This document shows positions 2,980 to 12,538 of a stretch of DNA of 36,800 bases, piece after piece. Within the stretch, counting starts at the first letter, position 1, and the number at the start of each line of letters is the position of its first letter. Source of the stretch: Candidatus Cyanaurora vandensis. GTDB lineage: Bacteria; Cyanobacteriota; Cyanobacteriia; Gloeobacterales; Anthocerotibacteraceae. The notes beneath the pieces are model-generated. The model was not told the origin of the DNA and did not search any database. It was given only the letters and a program-made list of their open reading frames with translations. The position numbers were made by a program, and so were the translations under genes. The stretch lies in contig NZ_JAAXLT010000154.1 of the NCBI RefSeq assembly GCF_013285555.1, positions 1 to 36,800 on the forward strand, given 5' to 3'.

Positions 2980-3852
2980 ATGGAACCCAAACTCATCATC
3001 CACGGCGGGGCGGGCTTGGCCCTGAGTGACCCCGACCGCGCTCAATCTGTGCGTATAGCTCTGGCTCAAGTGGTCAATGAGGTGCAGCAGGCCCTCTCGA
3101 CGGGGCTGAGCGCGACGGAAGCCGTGATATTAGCCGTCACCCGCCTAGAGGACGAACCCCGCTACAACGCAGGTACAGGCTCTGTGTTGCAATCCGATGG
3201 ACAGATTCGGATGAGTGCCAGTGTCATGGACGGGGCCAAGCAGCGGTTCAGTGGGGTGATCAATATCTCTGGCGTCCGTAACCCGGTGCTTCTCGCACAA
3301 TACCTGCAAGAAAGTCCTGACCGGGTGGTTTCCGAAACTGGGGGGCAATACCTAGCCCGTGAGATGAACCTCCCTCCCTATGACCCGACCACCGTGCGCC
3401 GTCTCGAAGAATGGTTTGAGCAAAAGAAAAGCGGAATTGTGCAACGGGCCGGGGCCTTGACCATGGGGACCGTCGGGGCCGTCGCCTTGGACCAACAGGG
3501 TCAAATTAGTGCCGCCACCTCCACGGGCGGACGGGGCTTCGAGCGCAACGGGCGGGTGAGTGATTCGGCCCAACCCGCCGGGAATTATGCCAATGACTGC
3601 TGTGGGGTCAGTTGTACCGGGATTGGTGAAGACATTATTGATGAGGCGGCGGCGGTGCGGATTGTCCTGCGGGTCACCGACGGGATGAACTTAACTGAAG
3701 CTTTAGCCAAAACCATAGGCGAGGCGAAAGTACGAAATCGGGACTATGGAGTGATTGCCTTAGACCATCACGGTACTGTGGGCTGGGACAAAAATATGCC
3801 CCTGTTACTCGCTGCATACACGGCTGAAGGGACTGTAGGGTTTAGCTTCTGA
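2980..3852 (+). CDS. iaaA: isoaspartyl peptidase / plant-type L-asparaginase
   Basis: A 290-residue Ntn-hydrolase of the plant-type asparaginase family (peptidase T2). It is expected to self-cleave before Thr164 in MGTVGAV, making alpha and beta chains. Other family marks are IIHGGAG at residues 6-12, RYNAGTGSVL, TSTGGR and GRVSDSAQPAGNYAND. These enzymes hydrolyse beta-aspartyl dipeptides and asparagine. In cyanobacteria the key role is splitting the beta-Asp-Arg released by cyanophycinase, whose gene lies at 22271. It starts 34 bases after dnaX and may be co-transcribed with it. Confidence 0.95.
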   Translation: MEPKLIIHGGAGLALSDPDRAQSVRIALAQVVNEVQQALSTGLSATEAVILAVTRLEDEPRYNAGTGSVLQSDGQIRMSASVMDGAKQRFSGVINISGVRNPVLLAQYLQESPDRVVSETGGQYLAREMNLPPYDPTTVRRLEEWFEQKKSGIVQRAGALTMGTVGAVALDQQGQISAATSTGGRGFERNGRVSDSAQPAGNYANDCCGVSCTGIGEDIIDEAAAVRIVLRVTDGMNLTEALAKTIGEAKVRNRDYGVIALDHHGTVGWDKNMPLLLAAYTAEGTVGFSF

Positions 3853-3860
3853 ATCCGTCA

Positions 3861-3878
3861 CTGCCATCAGGGTGGCAG
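3861..3878 (+). terminator. hairpin just after iaaA, weak terminator candidate
   Basis: A 6-bp perfect stem CTGCCA/TGGCAG with a 6-base loop lies nine bases past the iaaA stop. There is no T-run directly after it, so intrinsic termination is doubtful; it may only protect the 3' end. Confidence 0.25.
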
Positions 3879-3911
3879 GGTGTCCGCCTAATTACAATTC
3901 TTAACTGAAGC

Positions 3912-3940
3912 TTGCCTTGAAGTCGTTTGGAGCCTATGGT
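3912..3940 (+). promoter_or_regulatory. candidate sigma-70 promoter for apcAB
   Basis: TTGCCT (3912-3917) and TATGGT (3935-3940) are separated by exactly 17 bases, giving a reasonable -35/-10 pair. Transcription would start near 3947 and leave a leader of about 55 bases before apcA, with a stem-loop at 3956-3974. Confidence 0.45.
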
Positions 3941-3955
3941 ACCAGAGATATAGCA

Positions 3956-3974
3956 CGCCTGAAGCCCGCAGGCG
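3956..3974 (+). promoter_or_regulatory. stem-loop in the apcA 5' leader
   Basis: CGCCTG (3956-3961) pairs with CAGGCG (3969-3974) around a 7-base loop. It lies between the proposed transcription start and the AGGAG ribosome-binding site at 3987-3991. A leader hairpin of this kind could stabilise the abundant apc mRNA. Confidence 0.35.
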
Positions 3975-4001
3975 GCTAGTCCTGTTAGGAGTTGCAACCC
4001 C

Positions 4002-4487
4002 ATGAGTGCCATTACCAAAGCCATCCTCAATGCGGATGCGGAAGCCCGTTATCTCAGTCCCGGCGAGCTTGATGTCGTCCGTAGCTACCTCACCTCTGGC
4101 GAGCGTCGCGTCCGCGTGGCCCGTGTCCTTTCGGACAATGCCCTCCGCATTGTCAAAGGGGGCGGGGACAGCCTGTTCCAGAAGCGTCCTGACTTGGTTT
4201 CTCCCGGTGGCAATGCCTACGGCGAAACCATGACCGCCAAGTGCCTGCGCGACCTCGATTACTTCTTGCGTCTGGTCACCTACGGCGTTCTCGCTGGTGA
4301 TACTGCCCCGATCGATGAAATTGGTCTCATCGGTATTAAAGAGACCTACAGCCTGCTTGAAACACCCATCCCCGGTGTTATTGACGGAATCAAGGCAATG
4401 AAGTCCCAGGCCACCAGCATGATGCCGGGCGAAGATGCCGCTGAAGCAAGCTTTTACTTCGATTACGTCGTGAGTGCCATGTCCTAA
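4002..4487 (+). CDS. apcA: allophycocyanin alpha subunit
   Basis: A 161-residue phycobiliprotein of the alpha-allophycocyanin type, part of the phycobilisome core. The N-terminus (SAITKAILNADAEARYLSPG) and C-terminus (YFDYVVSAMS) are typical of ApcA rather than ApcD. The phycocyanobilin-attachment Cys is Cys81 in AKCLRDLDYFLR, with Asn71 in SPGGNAYG. AGGAG at 3987-3991 lies ten bases before the ATG. apcB follows after a 32-base gap with its own AAGGAG. A variant alpha subunit, such as one forming a specialised far-red or low-light allophycocyanin, cannot be excluded without comparison to other apc genes in this genome. Confidence 0.92.
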   Translation: MSAITKAILNADAEARYLSPGELDVVRSYLTSGERRVRVARVLSDNALRIVKGGGDSLFQKRPDLVSPGGNAYGETMTAKCLRDLDYFLRLVTYGVLAGDTAPIDEIGLIGIKETYSLLETPIPGVIDGIKAMKSQATSMMPGEDAAEASFYFDYVVSAMS

Positions 4488-4519
4488 CGGACGGGTGAAA
4501 TTACTGCAAGGAGCTACCC

Positions 4520-5008
4520 ATGATTGACTTAGTGACCCGAATCATCAACCGTACCGACTCCGAGGGCCGTTACCTCGGGGGCGTGGATTTTGAAGAAGTA
4601 ACTCGTTTTTACCAGACGGGCGAACTGCGGCTACGGGCGGCTTCCACGATCTCAGCCAATGCCTCCGCCATCCTGCGCGAAACCGCTGCCAACCTGTTCT
4701 CTGAGCAACCCGACCTGCTGCGTCCGGGCGGATATACCTACACCTCCCGTCGTTACGCCGCCTGTATCCGGGATATGGAGTATTTTCTGCGTTACGCGAG
4801 CTATGCCATGGTTGCTGGGGATACTTCGGTGATTGATGAGCGGGTCCTCAACGGCCTCAAGGAGACCTACAACTCCCTCGGCGTGCCCATCCCCTCAACC
4901 ATTGTCGGGATCAACGCTATGAAGAACGTGGTAGCGGGTATGGTCGGTGGTGAGGCTGGTGCCGAAGCTGCCAAATACTTTGACCACATTGCCAAGGGCC
5001 TCAGCTAG
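4520..5008 (+). CDS. apcB: allophycocyanin beta subunit (ApcB-like, Tyr72 variant)
   Basis: A 162-residue beta-type phycobiliprotein. ApcB marks are ASTISANAS, RRYAACIRDMEYFLRYASYA with chromophore Cys82, DERVLNGLKETYNSLGVP, and an ending YFDHIAKGLS without the longer ApcF tail. The residue ten before the chromophore Cys, normally the gamma-N-methylated Asn of beta subunits, is Tyr72 (RPGGYTYTSRR). The N-terminus (IDLVTRIINRTDSEGRYL) is divergent and slightly ApcF-like. apcC, which usually follows apcAB, is absent: a terminator comes 16 bases after the stop. It is a phycobilisome-core beta subunit; whether it is the major or a specialised copy is unknown. Confidence 0.85.
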   Translation: MIDLVTRIINRTDSEGRYLGGVDFEEVTRFYQTGELRLRAASTISANASAILRETAANLFSEQPDLLRPGGYTYTSRRYAACIRDMEYFLRYASYAMVAGDTSVIDERVLNGLKETYNSLGVPIPSTIVGINAMKNVVAGMVGGEAGAEAAKYFDHIAKGLS

Positions 5009-5024
5009 TCCCTAGGTTTATGTC

Positions 5025-5054
5025 AAAAACCCCGGTCAGTGACTGGGGTTTTTT
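5025..5054 (+). terminator. intrinsic terminator of apcAB
   Basis: AAAAACCCC pairs with GGGGTTTTT (outer) and GTCA with TGAC (inner), forming an almost continuous 14-bp stem that ends in six Ts. The A-run before the stem makes it usable in both directions, so it may also serve the opposing gene ending at 5065. Confidence 0.9.
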
Positions 5055-5064
5055 AATGGGCGAG

Positions 5065-6156
5065 TCAGACAGAAACTTTGGGGTCTGGGACTTGGTAAAA
5101 AGCACAGAAGCGGTCTAGGTCTAAGTACTGCGTGAGTAACTCCTGCATCCGCTCAACTTTGATGGGTTCTTGGAAGCGGGCTTGGTGGATCGCAGTCTCA
5201 ATGAGGCGGACAGTTTTGAGGGTGTCGTGGCTGACGGAGAGGACCGGGACCTCCATTTCCTCCGCACGGGCTAGGATCTTCGGGTCTGGAGGGAGTTGTC
5301 CGGTCAGGATGAGACAGTTAGTCGAGGTCTGGAGGGCGGCCAGTTGAATATCAGCCCGGTCACCGCCTGTCACCACCGCCTTGTGACTCATCCGCCGGAA
5401 GAAGCGCAGGGCCGCACTCACCGCCATCGCCCCGATATTGACCTGCTCCACCAAGAGGTCCAAGTGGTCGCGTCCACACAACACTTCCGCGCCTAATTTC
5501 TGGGCCAATTCCCCGACACTGATACTGTGCATCAGGCTATCGCTGGGTAAGACCGCTAGGACGTGAATGCCATGCGCTTCAAGACTCGGGATGATTTCCT
5601 GGGTCAGGTGTTCGTATTGACTAGCCGGGACATCATTGAGAATGACCCCGATGCGTTGCTGCGGGAACTGGGCCAGCAAAGAAAGTAGCGGCTCGACACT
5701 TGCTAAGGACTGATAGCGCACCACCATTAACAGGTCCGCCGCCAACTCTTGTACGAGATTGTCGAGCGATAGCCCAAAGAGTCGTCCTTCACTGGGACTA
5801 GCCCCCCCTTCGACTAGGGTCCAAGTTACAGGTCCGCCCGCTGTCTGCTGGAGGCGACCCAACTGCTGCCGGAGCCGTTCACTGTAGGGAATGGGGTCTT
5901 TTTTGAGTAGATAATACTCTAGGGCCTGAGGGTCGAAGAGGACCAGAGGTGCGGGCACCTGTAACCCCAGCCGTTCTCCGATATAACGGGAATCCTCATC
6001 CACGCAATAGCCGTTATTGTCACAGGTAGGTGAACCAAGGGGTTTGTAATAACCTACAGCGATACCCCGTGCCTTGAGTTGCAGACCCAGGGCGAGGACC
6101 AGCGATGACTTGCCACTATGGGGCTGGGTGGAGCCCACCAACAGAAAACGCGTCAC
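5065..6156 (-). CDS. BioD-like P-loop ATPase with DRTGG domain (phosphotransacetylase N-terminal-like family)
   Basis: A 363-residue protein. The N-terminal domain is a dethiobiotin-synthetase/CobB-like P-loop: FLLVGSTQPHSGKSSLVLALG contains the Walker-type GSTQPHSGKSS, and LVEGGASPSEGR is the BioD-like switch region. The C-terminal part (about 210-330, with GDRADIQLAAL and LILTGQLPPDP) is a DRTGG domain. This architecture matches the N-terminal half of long phosphotransacetylases, found free-standing in cyanobacteria; its role is not established. GTG 6156 is chosen because it starts directly at VTRFLLVGST. The longer frame up to 6288 runs into the tRNA gene and is not credible. Confidence 0.8.
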   Translation of the reverse strand: MTRFLLVGSTQPHSGKSSLVLALGLQLKARGIAVGYYKPLGSPTCDNNGYCVDEDSRYIGERLGLQVPAPLVLFDPQALEYYLLKKDPIPYSERLRQQLGRLQQTAGGPVTWTLVEGGASPSEGRLFGLSLDNLVQELAADLLMVVRYQSLASVEPLLSLLAQFPQQRIGVILNDVPASQYEHLTQEIIPSLEAHGIHVLAVLPSDSLMHSISVGELAQKLGAEVLCGRDHLDLLVEQVNIGAMAVSAALRFFRRMSHKAVVTGGDRADIQLAALQTSTNCLILTGQLPPDPKILARAEEMEVPVLSVSHDTLKTVRLIETAIHQARFQEPIKVERMQELLTQYLDLDRFCAFYQVPDPKVSV

Positions 6157-6236
6157 GGTGCCCCACAATAAAAGGTATGCCCAAAAAATACACGATCTAG
6201 CTCCAGTCCGCGCCGCAAGAATCTTAAATTGGCAAA

Positions 6237-6326
<90 letters not shown>

Positions 6327-7817: not shown

Positions 7818-8249
7818 TTAATGGGCGATTATTTCCAACGCTTCAGGGCCGCCCGCCACTGCCATCGCGGCAATTCGCTGATCCAGGGTTGCCAACTTGC
7901 CGCCTTTATAGGCAGCTAGACCAAGCAAGAAAACATCGGTGAGTCGGGAATGGGGAATCAGTACACTGGGTTTTAGTATTGTACGAATACTCACCTCGGC
8001 AGACCAGAAGTGGTGGCCTTGGGCTGCACAGAATTGGCGGAGTATTGCCATCACTACCGGAAGCTCCCCTGGGCGATTGGGATAGTTAGGGTGGCTTGCG
8101 ATACGAACAAAGCCATTTTCGGTGATTGGACAGGTAGCCCAAGCTGTTTGCCCCCTGTCACTAAACCAGCGATGGACTCCTTCATGATGAATATGCATCG
8201 GATCGCTTAGAGCGAGCAACACATTGACATCCAGAAGGTAGGTAGTCAC
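7818..8249 (-). CDS. vapC: PIN-domain ribonuclease toxin (VapC family)
   Basis: A 143-residue PIN domain. The acidic catalytic set is visible as Asp7 (LLDVNVLLAL), Glu44 (PITENGF), Asp105 (LTDVFLLGLA) and Asp123 (ATLDQR). These residues coordinate Mg2+ in VapC RNases, which cleave specific tRNAs or rRNA. The ATG overlaps the last four bases of the preceding antitoxin gene (8246-8249), the standard translational coupling of an antitoxin-toxin module. All four catalytic acids are present, so the toxin looks functional. Confidence 0.88.
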   Translation of the reverse strand: MTTYLLDVNVLLALSDPMHIHHEGVHRWFSDRGQTAWATCPITENGFVRIASHPNYPNRPGELPVVMAILRQFCAAQGHHFWSAEVSIRTILKPSVLIPHSRLTDVFLLGLAAYKGGKLATLDQRIAAMAVAGGPEALEIIAH

Positions 8250-8470
8250 AGTTCGTCCCGCAATTGATTCACCAGTTCTAGCGTGACGACCTTGGGTTCA
8301 GGGGCAACTGGAAAGAGCGGTAATCCATTGCGCGATGGCGTGACCGCCTGTCGGGACAGGGCTTGACGGGCTAGGTCCGACAATACTTTCCCCACCGAAA
8401 CCCCGCGTTGCCGTGCTATTTCTCTAGCAGCAAATAGAACATCTTCTTCAAGATTGAGCGTGGTACGCAT
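8246..8470 (-). CDS. vapB: ribbon-helix-helix antitoxin of the VapBC module
   Basis: A 74-residue protein whose N-terminus (MRTTLNLEEDVLFAAREIARQRGVSVGKVLSDLARQAL) is a ribbon-helix-helix DNA-binding fold. The C-terminal tail (NGLPLFPV to VVTLELVNQLRDEL) would wrap the toxin. The start at 8470 is preferred over an ATG ten codons upstream because RTTLNLEEDV opens the beta-strand of the fold. It probably autorepresses its own promoter between 8470 and the divergent doxX-type gene. Confidence 0.85.
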   Translation of the reverse strand: MRTTLNLEEDVLFAAREIARQRGVSVGKVLSDLARQALSRQAVTPSRNGLPLFPVAPEPKVVTLELVNQLRDEL

Positions 8471-8579
8471 CCTTGGCTCCCAGGTATGGCTAGCGTGCAA
8501 TCAACTTGATGCTAACGCATCAAAAGCTTGGTGTTGAAGCATCATGGGAATTTGTAAGCCGGGGACCTATTCTGGAACC

Positions 8580-8945
8580 ATGATCAAAACCTTGTTGCGG
8601 TGGGTCCTAGCGGCTTTTATGGTGACGGCGGGGGTCCTCCATTTTGTGACCCCAGAGCCTTTTGTGCGGATTGTGCCCGCGCTGTTGCCCTATCCCTTGG
8701 CCTTGGTCTATATCAGTGGGTTCTTTGAGGTCCTCGGCGGGGTGGGACTCTTGATCCCTCTGGTCAGTCGGGCGGCGGCTTGGGGATTGATTGCGCTGTT
8801 TGTTGCGGTCTTCCCCGCCAACATCAATATGGCGGTCAACCAGATTACCCTTGAGGGCATCCCCAATGACCCGCTTTTGTACTGGTTACGGTTGCCATTG
8901 CAGGGCGTTTTGATTGCTTGGGCTTGGTGGTTTACTCGACCCTAG
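8580..8945 (+). CDS. DoxX-family membrane protein
   Basis: A 121-residue integral membrane protein with four hydrophobic helices: LLRWVLAAFMVTAGVLHF, YPLALVYISGFFEVLGGVGLLIP, AWGLIALFVAVFPANINMAV and LPLQGVLIAWAWW. The pattern (GVLHF...PxxF...SGxxExxGGxGLL...ANINMAV) is that of small DoxX-like proteins. No specific function is established. ATG 8580 is chosen over 8544 because the upstream 12 codons are not membrane-like. The 3' end overlaps the convergent SGNH gene by 14 bases. Confidence 0.8.
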   Translation: MIKTLLRWVLAAFMVTAGVLHFVTPEPFVRIVPALLPYPLALVYISGFFEVLGGVGLLIPLVSRAAAWGLIALFVAVFPANINMAVNQITLEGIPNDPLLYWLRLPLQGVLIAWAWWFTRP

Positions 8946-10059
8946 GTAAATCTCGTTCCGCCAAAAACTGGGCCAAGGCACGGGCAGCAACGGCATGACC
9001 CGCCCGGTTCCAGTGACCATCAATCCGAAAATAGAGTTGCTGAGCCTGTCCTGTGCTGGAAAGGGCGGCCTGTTGCAGCGCGGGGGTCAAGTCAAGATGG
9101 GGGATATTTTGGCGGGTGAGTCGGACTTTGAAATCGCGGTAGGTCTGGAAGGCGGTCTGGACTAGCTGGCGTTGTTCCGGGGTGAAGACATGGGCAACCC
9201 TGGGGTAGTAGACCATTTCTTTGGTCGGGATGAGGACTAGGACTAGCTGGCAGTCTTGGGCCTGACACTGGGTCTGGACTCGGCTCACCCCGGCCTCAAG
9301 CTCAGCAAGTCCCCTGGCAAAATCCGGGGTCCGGGGGTCCACGATGTTATGGGTCATTGGAAAGAGGACCAAATCGAGACCGCTGTCTTGATAACTGATC
9401 GGTTGCTGGTCGGAGAAGTACGCGCCCTGGATCACAAATTTGACCAAACGGTAAATCAGGGAATGAGAATCCAACCAGACCCGTAGATTAATTACCGCAG
9501 TGGTGATGGTTTCGTTCTGGCTGGTAATCTGAGCGGCGGCGGGTTGCAGGTCATTGGCAAAAAAAGACCAAATAACCACCTGGGGCCGTTGCGGGGCGAC
9601 ATACTGCTCAAAAACCTTACGGTACTGCCAAGCGGAGAAACCACTCTGCCCATAGCCCGCCGCCACCGTGTTCCGTGCCTGTCCAACCTGCTGGACCCAG
9701 GTAGCCGCCTGGGGTACCCCGAATCCCCAGACAAAGGAATCCCCCAGAAAAGCCACGTCTGGGTTCTGGCTCCCAGTGGGATTACGAAAGCCGAACTCAT
9801 CAGTCTGGACGGTGATGGTCTCGGTATCGTTGATGCGGATGGCGGGGCGGTTGAGGTCTGGGCGGGTCATCGTACCCACCCCTGGTACAAAGGTAAACAG
9901 GTCCTCGTCCGTCGCCCGAGTAAAAAGGGCCTGCTGGAGTTCAAGGCTGAGTCGGGGTCCCACGAGTCGTAGTCCCAGTTCCAATAACCCCACGCCCAGC
10001 AGGGTACTCGTCAGGACTAGCCCCAGGTTTAACCCCAGGGACCGCAACCGTTTGACCAC
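8932..10059 (-). CDS. membrane-anchored SGNH/GDSL-type hydrolase
   Basis: A 375-residue protein beginning with one N-terminal transmembrane helix (LGLNLGLVLTSTLLGVGLLELGLRLV). SGNH motifs follow: block I FLGDSFVWGFG with nucleophile Ser108, a Gly-rich GYGQSGFSAWQY, Asn in FFANDL, and the catalytic DGHWNRAGH near residue 350. Such proteins are periplasmic esterases or polysaccharide O-acetyl hydrolases/transferases (AlgX/DltD-like); the substrate is unknown. The start is GTG. It lies 49 bases downstream of the FG-GAP mini-gene on the same strand. Confidence 0.8.
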   Translation of the reverse strand: MVKRLRSLGLNLGLVLTSTLLGVGLLELGLRLVGPRLSLELQQALFTRATDEDLFTFVPGVGTMTRPDLNRPAIRINDTETITVQTDEFGFRNPTGSQNPDVAFLGDSFVWGFGVPQAATWVQQVGQARNTVAAGYGQSGFSAWQYRKVFEQYVAPQRPQVVIWSFFANDLQPAAAQITSQNETITTAVINLRVWLDSHSLIYRLVKFVIQGAYFSDQQPISYQDSGLDLVLFPMTHNIVDPRTPDFARGLAELEAGVSRVQTQCQAQDCQLVLVLIPTKEMVYYPRVAHVFTPEQRQLVQTAFQTYRDFKVRLTRQNIPHLDLTPALQQAALSSTGQAQQLYFRIDGHWNRAGHAVAARALAQFLAERDLPRVE

Positions 10060-10519: not shown

Positions 10520-10861
10520 ATGGAACAACCGCCCCTAGACCCGCAACGCCTAGACCGTGGTGAATGTAACGTCTGTGGTTACATCTATGAACCGGTGGAT
10601 GGCGACAAAGCGCGGGGCATTGCCGCCGGGACTCCTTTTGAGGCCGTGCCTGAGACGTGGCGGTGTCCTAGTTGCAATTCTCCGCGTGTCCGCTTCTCGC
10701 GCATCGGGCCACGGGCAGGGGCGCAGGAGGGGCTGGAGGAGAACGTCAAATTTGGTTTGGGGGTCAATACCCTCAACCCTCAGGTCAAGAACTTACTGAT
10801 CTTTGGGGCATTGGGGGTCGGGTTATTGTTCTTGATGAGTTTCTACTTTGTGGGTCAATAA
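10520..10861 (+). CDS. rubA: membrane-anchored rubredoxin RubA
   Basis: A 113-residue protein. The rubredoxin domain has Cys16/Cys19 (CNVCGYIYEP) and Cys49/Cys52 (CPSCNSPR) binding one iron. A linker leads to a single C-terminal transmembrane helix (LLIFGALGVGLLFLMSFYFV). In oxygenic phototrophs RubA is required for photosystem II assembly (and reported for photosystem I). It overlaps or abuts ycf48 downstream, the conserved rubA-ycf48 pairing. The 174-base region upstream is AT-rich and probably holds the promoter. Confidence 0.95.
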   Translation: MEQPPLDPQRLDRGECNVCGYIYEPVDGDKARGIAAGTPFEAVPETWRCPSCNSPRVRFSRIGPRAGAQEGLEENVKFGLGVNTLNPQVKNLLIFGALGVGLLFLMSFYFVGQ

Positions 10862-10865
10862 CGCC

Positions 10866-11876
10866 ATGTTGGGAGTAATCGGTCGCTGGTGCGGGGTGCG
10901 GACCCTGGTGCTGTTGGTTCAAGCCTGTAACTTTATTAAGACCGCTGAGCAGGTCCCTTGGTCAGAAGCTTCCCTCACCACTGAGGCGGACCTCCTGGAT
11001 GTCCATTTTGTAGATAGTCAGACCGGCTGGATGGTCGGGACCAAAACCACCGTCCTCAAGACAATAGATGGCGGTACAACTTGGCGGCCTGCTTTCGATA
11101 AACCCCTCCAAGGCGACAAGAATGCCGAGGGTGAGACAGCGGACCTCAATGCCCGGTTTGTCGCCGTAGCGTTCACCCCCAATGGACAGGAGGGCTGGAT
11201 CTCGGGCAACCCCCGCATCGTCTTGCATACTACAAACGGCGGGAAAAGTTGGTTCGCCATCCCGCTCAACAAACGGATTGTCGGCAACCCACTCCTCATT
11301 ACGGCCCTGGATACAGGCGTAGCAGAGATGGCAATGAATACGGGTTTTGTCTTCAAAACAGAGAATGGCGGTAAGGTCTGGCGGGCTTTGACCCCCACTT
11401 CCGCCGGGGGTATCCGCAACATCACCCGCTTGGAGGACGGCAGCTACTGGGCCGTCTCGGTGCGGGGCTCCTCCTATCTCAGTTGGAAGCCCGGTGAGCG
11501 CGAATGGAAATTACGCGAACGCAAGAGTTCACGCCGCATCCAGAACTTAGTCTTTGTCGATAACCAGCGCGGTCTAATGCTCAACAACGGCGGTGAAGTG
11601 CAGTTGACTAGCGACGGGGGCGAGACCTGGAGTAAACCGACGACGCCAGACATTGCTTCGGCGGCGGGGTTACTGGATTCTGGGGTGGATGAGAAGGGCC
11701 GCATCTGGGTGACGGGGGGCAATGGTACGCTCCTCGTTAGTTCAGACCTAGGCAAGACTTGGGCCAAAGCTCCCCTCCAAACCCGTAGTACCCTGTTTCG
11801 GATCAGGTTTGAGGAGAACGGTCAGGGTTTCATCATGGGTCAGCGCGGTCTCATCCTCCGCTATCAGGCTTCTTAA
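10866..11876 (+). CDS. ycf48: photosystem II assembly factor Ycf48 (HCF136)
   Basis: A 336-residue lumenal/periplasmic beta-propeller. Repeats with GWMVG, GGTTW, GWISG, GGKSW, GGETW and LGKTW mark the Asp-box/BNR-like blades. It binds the D1 precursor during early photosystem II assembly. The N-terminus carries a lipobox-like LVQAC with Cys21, fitting the lipoprotein form known in cyanobacteria. ATG 10866 is used; an in-frame start at 10848 would overlap rubA. Psb genes usually follow in the order psbE-F-L-J, but here a phytol-kinase-like gene follows. Confidence 0.95.
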   Translation: MLGVIGRWCGVRTLVLLVQACNFIKTAEQVPWSEASLTTEADLLDVHFVDSQTGWMVGTKTTVLKTIDGGTTWRPAFDKPLQGDKNAEGETADLNARFVAVAFTPNGQEGWISGNPRIVLHTTNGGKSWFAIPLNKRIVGNPLLITALDTGVAEMAMNTGFVFKTENGGKVWRALTPTSAGGIRNITRLEDGSYWAVSVRGSSYLSWKPGEREWKLRERKSSRRIQNLVFVDNQRGLMLNNGGEVQLTSDGGETWSKPTTPDIASAAGLLDSGVDEKGRIWVTGGNGTLLVSSDLGKTWAKAPLQTRSTLFRIRFEENGQGFIMGQRGLILRYQAS

Positions 11877-11890
11877 GGGCCGTGGGGGGC

Positions 11891-12538
11891 ATGGTCATCG
11901 CCCTGGTTTGGCTGGCTCTGGTCCTTCTGGTTGCCGAGGGAATGCGCCTGAGACAGGTGGAGCCGGAGTGGGTCCGTAAGTTTGTCCATATTGCGGTCGG
12001 GAACATCATCCTGCTCGCTTGGGGATTTAACTTCCCATTGGCGTTTTGTCTAGCTTTTTGTATTCCGTTTATGGGGTTGACGTTACTTTCTTACCGACTG
12101 CCACTATTACAAAGTATCAATGGGGTGGGGCGGCGGAGTCTGGGGACTTTTTATTACGCACTTAGTTTCACTTTATTGATTGGGATTTTTTGGAGCTTGA
12201 GCCGACCAGAGTTTGCGGTCTTGGGCATCTTGGTTATGACTTGGGGCGATGCACTCGCTGCCATCGTGGGTCAGCGTTGGGGTACCCACGGCTACCGGGC
12301 GGCAGGAGTCTACAAAACTTGGGAAGGTTCCCTGGTAATGGCCTTGGTCTCGGCGGGGGTGAGTCTGGCAGTGTTGAGTGTGAGCCTCGGGTTTAGTTGG
12401 GGACTCGTGGCGGTGGCTTTGGGCATCGGGGCGGTGGCTTGCGGGTTAGAGGTCTTTTCGCAGGGCGGGATTGATAACTTGACCGTACCCCTCGGGAGTG
12501 CCGTCCTAGCGTGGTTATGGGTAGGACCAGGCTTCTAA
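11891..12538 (+). CDS. phytol kinase / dolichol-kinase-like membrane protein (VTE5 family)
   Basis: A roughly 215-residue polytopic membrane protein with RKFVHIAVGNIILLAW near the N-terminus and a loop MTWGDALAAIVGQRWG followed by KTWEGSLVM. This WGD...GR...K(T)xEGS arrangement is the CTP-dependent polyprenol/phytol kinase signature. In phototrophs the family salvages phytol released from chlorophyll for tocopherol. The start at 11891 follows a GGGGGG stretch acting as ribosome-binding site; a GTG nine bases earlier is the alternative. It begins 14 bases after ycf48 and is probably co-transcribed with it. Confidence 0.82.
   Translation: MVIALVWLALVLLVAEGMRLRQVEPEWVRKFVHIAVGNIILLAWGFNFPLAFCLAFCIPFMGLTLLSYRLPLLQSINGVGRRSLGTFYYALSFTLLIGIFWSLSRPEFAVLGILVMTWGDALAAIVGQRWGTHGYRAAGVYKTWEGSLVMALVSAGVSLAVLSVSLGFSWGLVAVALGIGAVACGLEVFSQGGIDNLTVPLGSAVLAWLWVGPGF

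Follow-up and report, generated by a model that had tools for sequence, protein, structure and literature searches.

The apcA1-apcB1 gene pair and its surroundings

The stretch of DNA analysed here (the window; 36,800 nucleotides, GC content 55.3%) is contig C134 of a genome assembly of 3,073,437 bases in 234 contigs (93.8% complete, 1.69% contamination). At this degree of completeness, the absence of a gene from the assembly is no proof that the organism lacks it.

Two adjacent ORFs on the forward strand encode allophycocyanin subunits. The first, apcA1 (4002..4487), encodes an alpha subunit of 161 amino acids, and the second, apcB1 (4520..5008), a beta subunit of 162 amino acids whose translation includes the sequence ...LLRPGGYTYTSRRYAACIRD... 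Both products were assigned to the phycobilisome protein family (PF00502) by profile search, and at the score obtained for ApcB1 (193 bits) a chance match is no concern. Codons 71-74 of apcB1 are GGA-TAT-ACC-TAC. Codon 72 (TAT, Tyr; 4733..4735), which was placed by a pattern match at 4727-4765 and by codon alignment, occupies the site of the gamma-N-methyl-Asn (position 71 in other numberings). Codon 82 (TGT; 4763..4765) aligns with the conserved bilin-attachment Cys, and the aligned stretch containing both residues is RPGGYTYTSRRYAAC. The original prediction that Tyr replaces the methylatable Asn ten residues before an intact Cys82 was thus confirmed by ORF translation and alignment. Of the two residues that mark a beta-type subunit, Cys82 is present, and the methyl-Asn at position 72 is absent.

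A hairpin with a terminal U-run, AAAAACCCCGGUC-AGU-GACUGGGGUUUUU, lies 3' of the apcB1 stop codon (5025..5053, forward strand), and is the probable intrinsic terminator of apcA1B1. The folding energy of positions 5022-5062 was -19.6 kcal/mol, compared with -9.2 +/- 2.6 kcal/mol for shuffled sequences (z -4.0). A consensus terminator scan of positions 3800-5100 reported no terminator, probably because its rule requires a T-run after the stem, and here most of the Ts lie within it. When the genome's two ApcC proteins were used as tblastn queries (E 1e-8 or better), the main-operon loci were recovered, but no apcC was detected anywhere in the 36.8-kb window.

The window and a second genome of the same family (G001) have dnaX, an isoaspartyl-peptidase-like gene, apcA1 and apcB1 in the same order. 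On the other side of the pair, a tRNA gene on the reverse strand (6242-6326; Rfam RF00005, 63 bits) overlaps the 5' end of a long reverse-strand ORF (5065-6288), the true start of which is therefore probably further in. Positions 10520-12538 carry what are presumably, from the ORF translations, rubredoxin-like and Ycf48-like genes, with a phytol-kinase-like gene immediately after them; the psbEFLJ cluster, the usual neighbor of the rubredoxin and Ycf48 genes, does not adjoin them.

Relationship to the ApcA1 and ApcB1 proteins of A. panamensis

The best PDB match of the window ApcB1 was chain 8imk_G of A. panamensis, named 'ApcB1' (E 1.6e-78, 265 bits), with ApcB2 second at 219 bits. ApcA1 likewise matched 8imk_A, 'ApcA1', best (E 6.6e-90, 302 bits), ahead of the allophycocyanin alpha chain 9v7j_M (249 bits), and was 86% identical to the copy in G001, 81% to that in G002 (a member of another family of the Gloeobacterales) and 66% to ApcA2 of its own genome. 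The ApcB1 of G001 is letter for letter the 8imk_G chain.

A tree was built from 70 beta-subunit rows after removal of the variable columns 72-73. In it, the window protein, that of G001 and one protein of G002 formed an ApcB1 clade (support 100/92) outside all other ApcB and ApcF rows, and the remaining 64 ApcB/ApcF-type rows joined at 96/88; the bootstrap had not yet converged (correlation 0.976 against a target of 0.99). The ApcF rows L087 and L101 were added to the tree, and L102 was dropped. The latter (G016:C5:255540-256180), which was the only match to the ApcB1 query in its genome, is without the PGGN loop and reads GGKGSRRYAAC. ApcB1 is set apart from other ApcB and ApcF proteins in the same way in the A. 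panamensis structure paper (PMC10696076).

By best match, tree position and local gene order, the window pair therefore resembles the A. panamensis ApcA1 and ApcB1, and both of its genes are regarded as orthologues of these. The two ApcB1 proteins are well kept overall (125/158 residues identical), but differ in having Tyr72-Thr73 in the window and Asn72-Ala73 in A. panamensis, and in length (162 and 158 amino acids, the difference lying near the C-terminus). The N-terminus, described as divergent in the original prediction, does differ from that of ordinary ApcB (MQDAIT...), but among ApcB1 proteins it is of the same type as in A. panamensis (MLDAVTKIINRTDAEGRY).

In a gene-order search of nine genomes, ApcB1 was found in three. 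One scan of GTDB contigs, from which records of the window's own genome were possibly left out, gave four loci with 55-57% identity, none of the ApcB1 kind.

The PF00502 profile search of the genome gave nine matches: the window pair, an apcA2/apcB2 alpha/beta pair with two apcE pieces on contig C116, a cpcB/cpcA pair on C21, and one beta-type gene on C60, which grouped in the tree with the third A. panamensis beta gene and Gloeobacter ApcF. No separate apcD was seen among these nine matches, in agreement with the published description of the organism's MAG, which reports it to be without ApcD (PMC7368068).

The genes on C116 form the main core operon, apcE-apcH-apcA2-apcB2-apcC1-apcC2. The apcH product (8240-9538) matched 8imk_1, 'ApcH', best in the PDB (644 bits; next ApcE, 437 bits), apcC1 (10775-10960) matched ApcC1, and the second apcC gene matched ApcC2. 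Core gene set and order were the same in G001 and G002, and A. panamensis shows the same division, with apcA1B1 apart from this operon. G002 resembles the window genome in its ApcB1 clade member, its apcH and its two apcC genes; its apcA1B1 pair, however, is separated from the end of the main operon by about 2.7 kb that include a helicase-like gene on the opposite strand, whereas the window pair is on a separate contig. In this lineage both apcC genes follow apcB2 in the main operon, and an apcB1 without an apcC after it is therefore the rule. The strong terminator and missing apcC noted in the original prediction were thus real, but the missing apcC is no peculiarity of this operon.

The prediction of a specialised pair beside the main core set was borne out, as the main set is on C116. 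A reading of the pair as a far-red or low-light allophycocyanin (a FaRLiP ApcB or a LoLiP ApcD4-ApcB3 form), with Tyr72 shifting absorption to the red, would be consistent with a duplicated pair that is not part of the main operon and has an altered residue beside the bilin. Against this, ApcB1 clustered with the two other Gloeobacterales ApcB1 proteins, far from L059, which has Asn at the site; from its motif, L059 is taken to be a far-red ApcB, and is the only such row in the tree. The chains 8uhe_B, 8or7_B and 9i1r_B, presumably far-red forms, scored 186-189 bits, compared with 265 bits for ApcB1. A far-red or low-light role is consequently highly improbable. Nor is the window gene the only, ordinary ApcB of a clade in which Tyr72 is conserved, because apcB2 is found elsewhere in the genome and the A. 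panamensis ApcB1 has Asn. The earlier interpretation as a whole was therefore supported in part.

Residue 72 in ApcB1 and ApcF across cyanobacteria

The site was scanned in 388 cyanobacterial genomes with the pattern GG-x-x-Y-x-x-R-R-[YF]-A-[AS]-C, a form that misses phycocyanin beta (RRM) and some ApcF (L087 and L101, both with Asn). The Asn form was found in 344 genomes. Site codons not beginning with A occurred at ten places in ten genomes, and all were Tyr (TAY); codons ACN, AGN or ATN occurred in two genomes, and both were Ser (AGT). All 12 of these non-Asn places (12 of 388 genomes; the scan did not cover the Lys codons AAR) were identified as ApcB1 or ApcF. From sequence and tree, the ten Tyr places comprise two ApcB1 (the window and G002) and eight ApcF, and both Ser places are ApcF. 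Position 72 is therefore treated as a variable site of the family, and the loss of Asn as no bar to beta-type membership of the window protein.

Among the 70 aligned rows, site 72 was Asn in 58, Tyr in ten and Ser in two. Asn was invariant in the main ApcB rows (27/27). The crown ApcF rows had Asn in 17/27, a figure which is not a frequency since these rows were partly picked for lacking Asn. The Tyr label required five changes on the best tree and 5-6 over the bootstrap trees, of which the strongly supported branches alone force two. ApcF forms a clade separate from ApcB1 (100/100), and on the best tree gained its Tyr separately, although it too is a core subunit other than the bulk ApcB. The Tyr-bearing ApcF (beta-18) rows are L073, L074 and L077-L082, from eight crown genomes (G013, G368, G312, G134, G189, G121, G076 and G155), six of them in one family; about three gains are indicated, at weakly supported forks. 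The Ser rows are L103 and L104 (G183 and G029). No other column separated the Tyr from the Asn set in a comparison of eight Tyr with 17 Asn crown ApcF rows.

Within ApcB1, residue 72 is Tyr in two of three proteins (window and G002) and Asn in A. panamensis. An ancestral Tyr (one gain, one reversal) and two independent gains each cost two changes. Restoration of Asn in A. panamensis ApcB1 by gene conversion from apcB2 was also considered. Twenty-codon windows gave no clear tract, while a short old one is possible: codon 72 of G001 is AAT in apcB1 and AAC in apcB2, and the likeness of the two genes over codons 61-100 was 0.78-0.83 in G001, 0.73-0.78 in the window genome and 0.65-0.70 in G002, the mid-gene region being more alike in all three.

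A Tyr produced by a sequencing or assembly error would need only a one-base change (AAT to TAT), and the assembly is in 234 contigs. However, the separate genome G002 has Tyr with different surrounding codons, which makes an error unlikely, and residue 73 also differs (Thr in the window and Ser in G002, compared with Ala in A. panamensis). An error at codon 72 can be all but set aside.

The loss of the methyl site might also be neutral or slightly harmful, and tolerated in ApcB1 and ApcF because their bilins are less important, without any tuning. Neither protein is the bulk beta subunit, Ser occurs in two ApcF, the A. panamensis ApcB1 keeps Asn, and the well-supported branches force only two Tyr-label changes. 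A neutral loss might, however, be expected to yield any of the residues one base change away from Asn, yet ten of the 12 non-Asn places (Lys codons AAR aside) were Tyr, and ApcB1 is otherwise well conserved. The BLOSUM62 scores from Asn are +1 for Asp, Ser and His, 0 for Thr and Lys, -2 for Tyr and -3 for Ile. That Tyr was chosen repeatedly despite its score looks like selection, which is an argument and not a proof. Neutral loss is a real possibility, if one given less than an even chance.

Twenty matches to Methyltransf_25 were found in the genome; in ten of the 20 that were compared with NCBIfam, none of the matches listed named CpcM. A search of the accessible literature, with most subscription papers and supplements outside its scope, gave no paper on a Tyr in place of the methyl-Asn or on its repeated occurrence in ApcF, and none that described a Tyr72 form by spectroscopy or structure determination. 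The words 'methyl' and 'Tyr' do not occur in the main text of PMC10696076.

Proposed function in the phycobilisome core

The window protein falls in the ApcB1 clade, its gene lies alongside apcA1, and apcH and apcC1 are present in the genome. The roles of ApcA1, ApcB1, ApcC1 and ApcH were described for the paddle-shaped A. panamensis phycobilisome (PDB 8imk) in PMC10696076, in which ApcH of Aurora was already included in the trees. On the strength of orthology and the same parts list, the window pair very likely represents ApcA1-ApcB1, which would build most trimers of two extra top core cylinders (D/D'). The core would then be of the heptacylindrical paddle type, an antenna form that occurs in early-branching cyanobacteria, with ApcH connecting the top cylinders and the pentacylindrical core below them, and ApcC1 serving as the small core linker of the top cylinders.

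In allophycocyanin beta, the side-chain oxygen of the gamma-N-methyl-Asn is about 3 A from ring nitrogen NC of the beta chromophore, and the modified residue contributes to directional energy transfer (PMC4414346, the latter citing Swanson and Glazer 1990). From this contact of the Asn side chain in ordinary allophycocyanin, Tyr72 would be expected to affect the same bilin: it would remove the methylation site and put an aromatic ring near the beta-82 bilin, shifting its energy or lifetime. Any such effect would be limited to the top cylinders, through which energy from the upper phycocyanin would reach the core. By this analogy, tuning of the beta-82 bilin by Tyr72 has about an even chance of being correct. 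Since the A. panamensis ApcB1 keeps Asn72, Tyr would be optional in the top cylinder.

Top-cylinder ApcA1 and ApcB1 are already known; the Tyr variant and its repeated occurrence in ApcF are new as far as the accessible literature shows. The preferred reading is that the methyl-Asn site has been lost repeatedly in core beta subunits of specialised type, and that the beta-82 bilin was probably retuned as a result. The site is free to change in these subunits, while Asn stays in the bulk ApcB. The Asn of the A. panamensis ApcB1 and the Tyr of its two relatives and of several ApcF form a natural series, and single-residue swaps in such closely matched proteins could test the methyl-Asn rule of energy transfer.

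The phycocyanin operon on C21 (1706-10348) encodes a three-domain (three-REP) linker of 853 amino acids, a two-domain (two-REP) linker of 492 amino acids and three single-domain (single-REP) linkers. The two-domain and three-domain genes are six genes apart; two Aurora linkers of these types carry the locus numbers 00691 and 00697 in PMC10696076, in keeping with a genome that is very probably that of Candidatus Aurora vandensis. The five-domain CpcN of A. panamensis was not found in this linker set, so that the two organisms differ in their phycocyanin linkers. For the three single-domain linkers, the search for an N-terminal CpcD-like domain gave 32.5 bits, 25.5 bits (Pfam cut-off 27) and nothing at E 0.001. 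One single-domain linker was compared with the PDB; summed over repeats, CpcN and Glr2806 were its best matches, and its alignment with Gloeobacter CpcC1 and CpcC2 began at residue 20 or 28. CpcC is reported to be absent from A. panamensis, and the 2023 paper cautioned that the Aurora phycobilisome might differ considerably (PMC10696076). In view of this caution and of the unlike linkers, the whole antenna need not be paddle-shaped, and the CpcC-like linker leads to the prediction that this organism may combine a 5+2 core with rods.

A broader reading, in which Asn72 to Tyr is a recurrent, selected retuning at an energy bottleneck (ApcB1, ApcF) and the 5+2 core with rods on Gloeobacter-type CpcC linkers may form a hybrid antenna of a kind new to observation, is offered tentatively and is on balance doubtful. 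Efficient energy transfer from the ApcE emitter depends on ApcF. If the reading is right, Tyr arose in ApcB1, the presumed link between upper antenna and core, and independently in ApcF.

The C21 operon also encodes a free CpcD-type protein (PF01383, 54 bits); CpcD is described as missing from the published MAG (PMC7368068).
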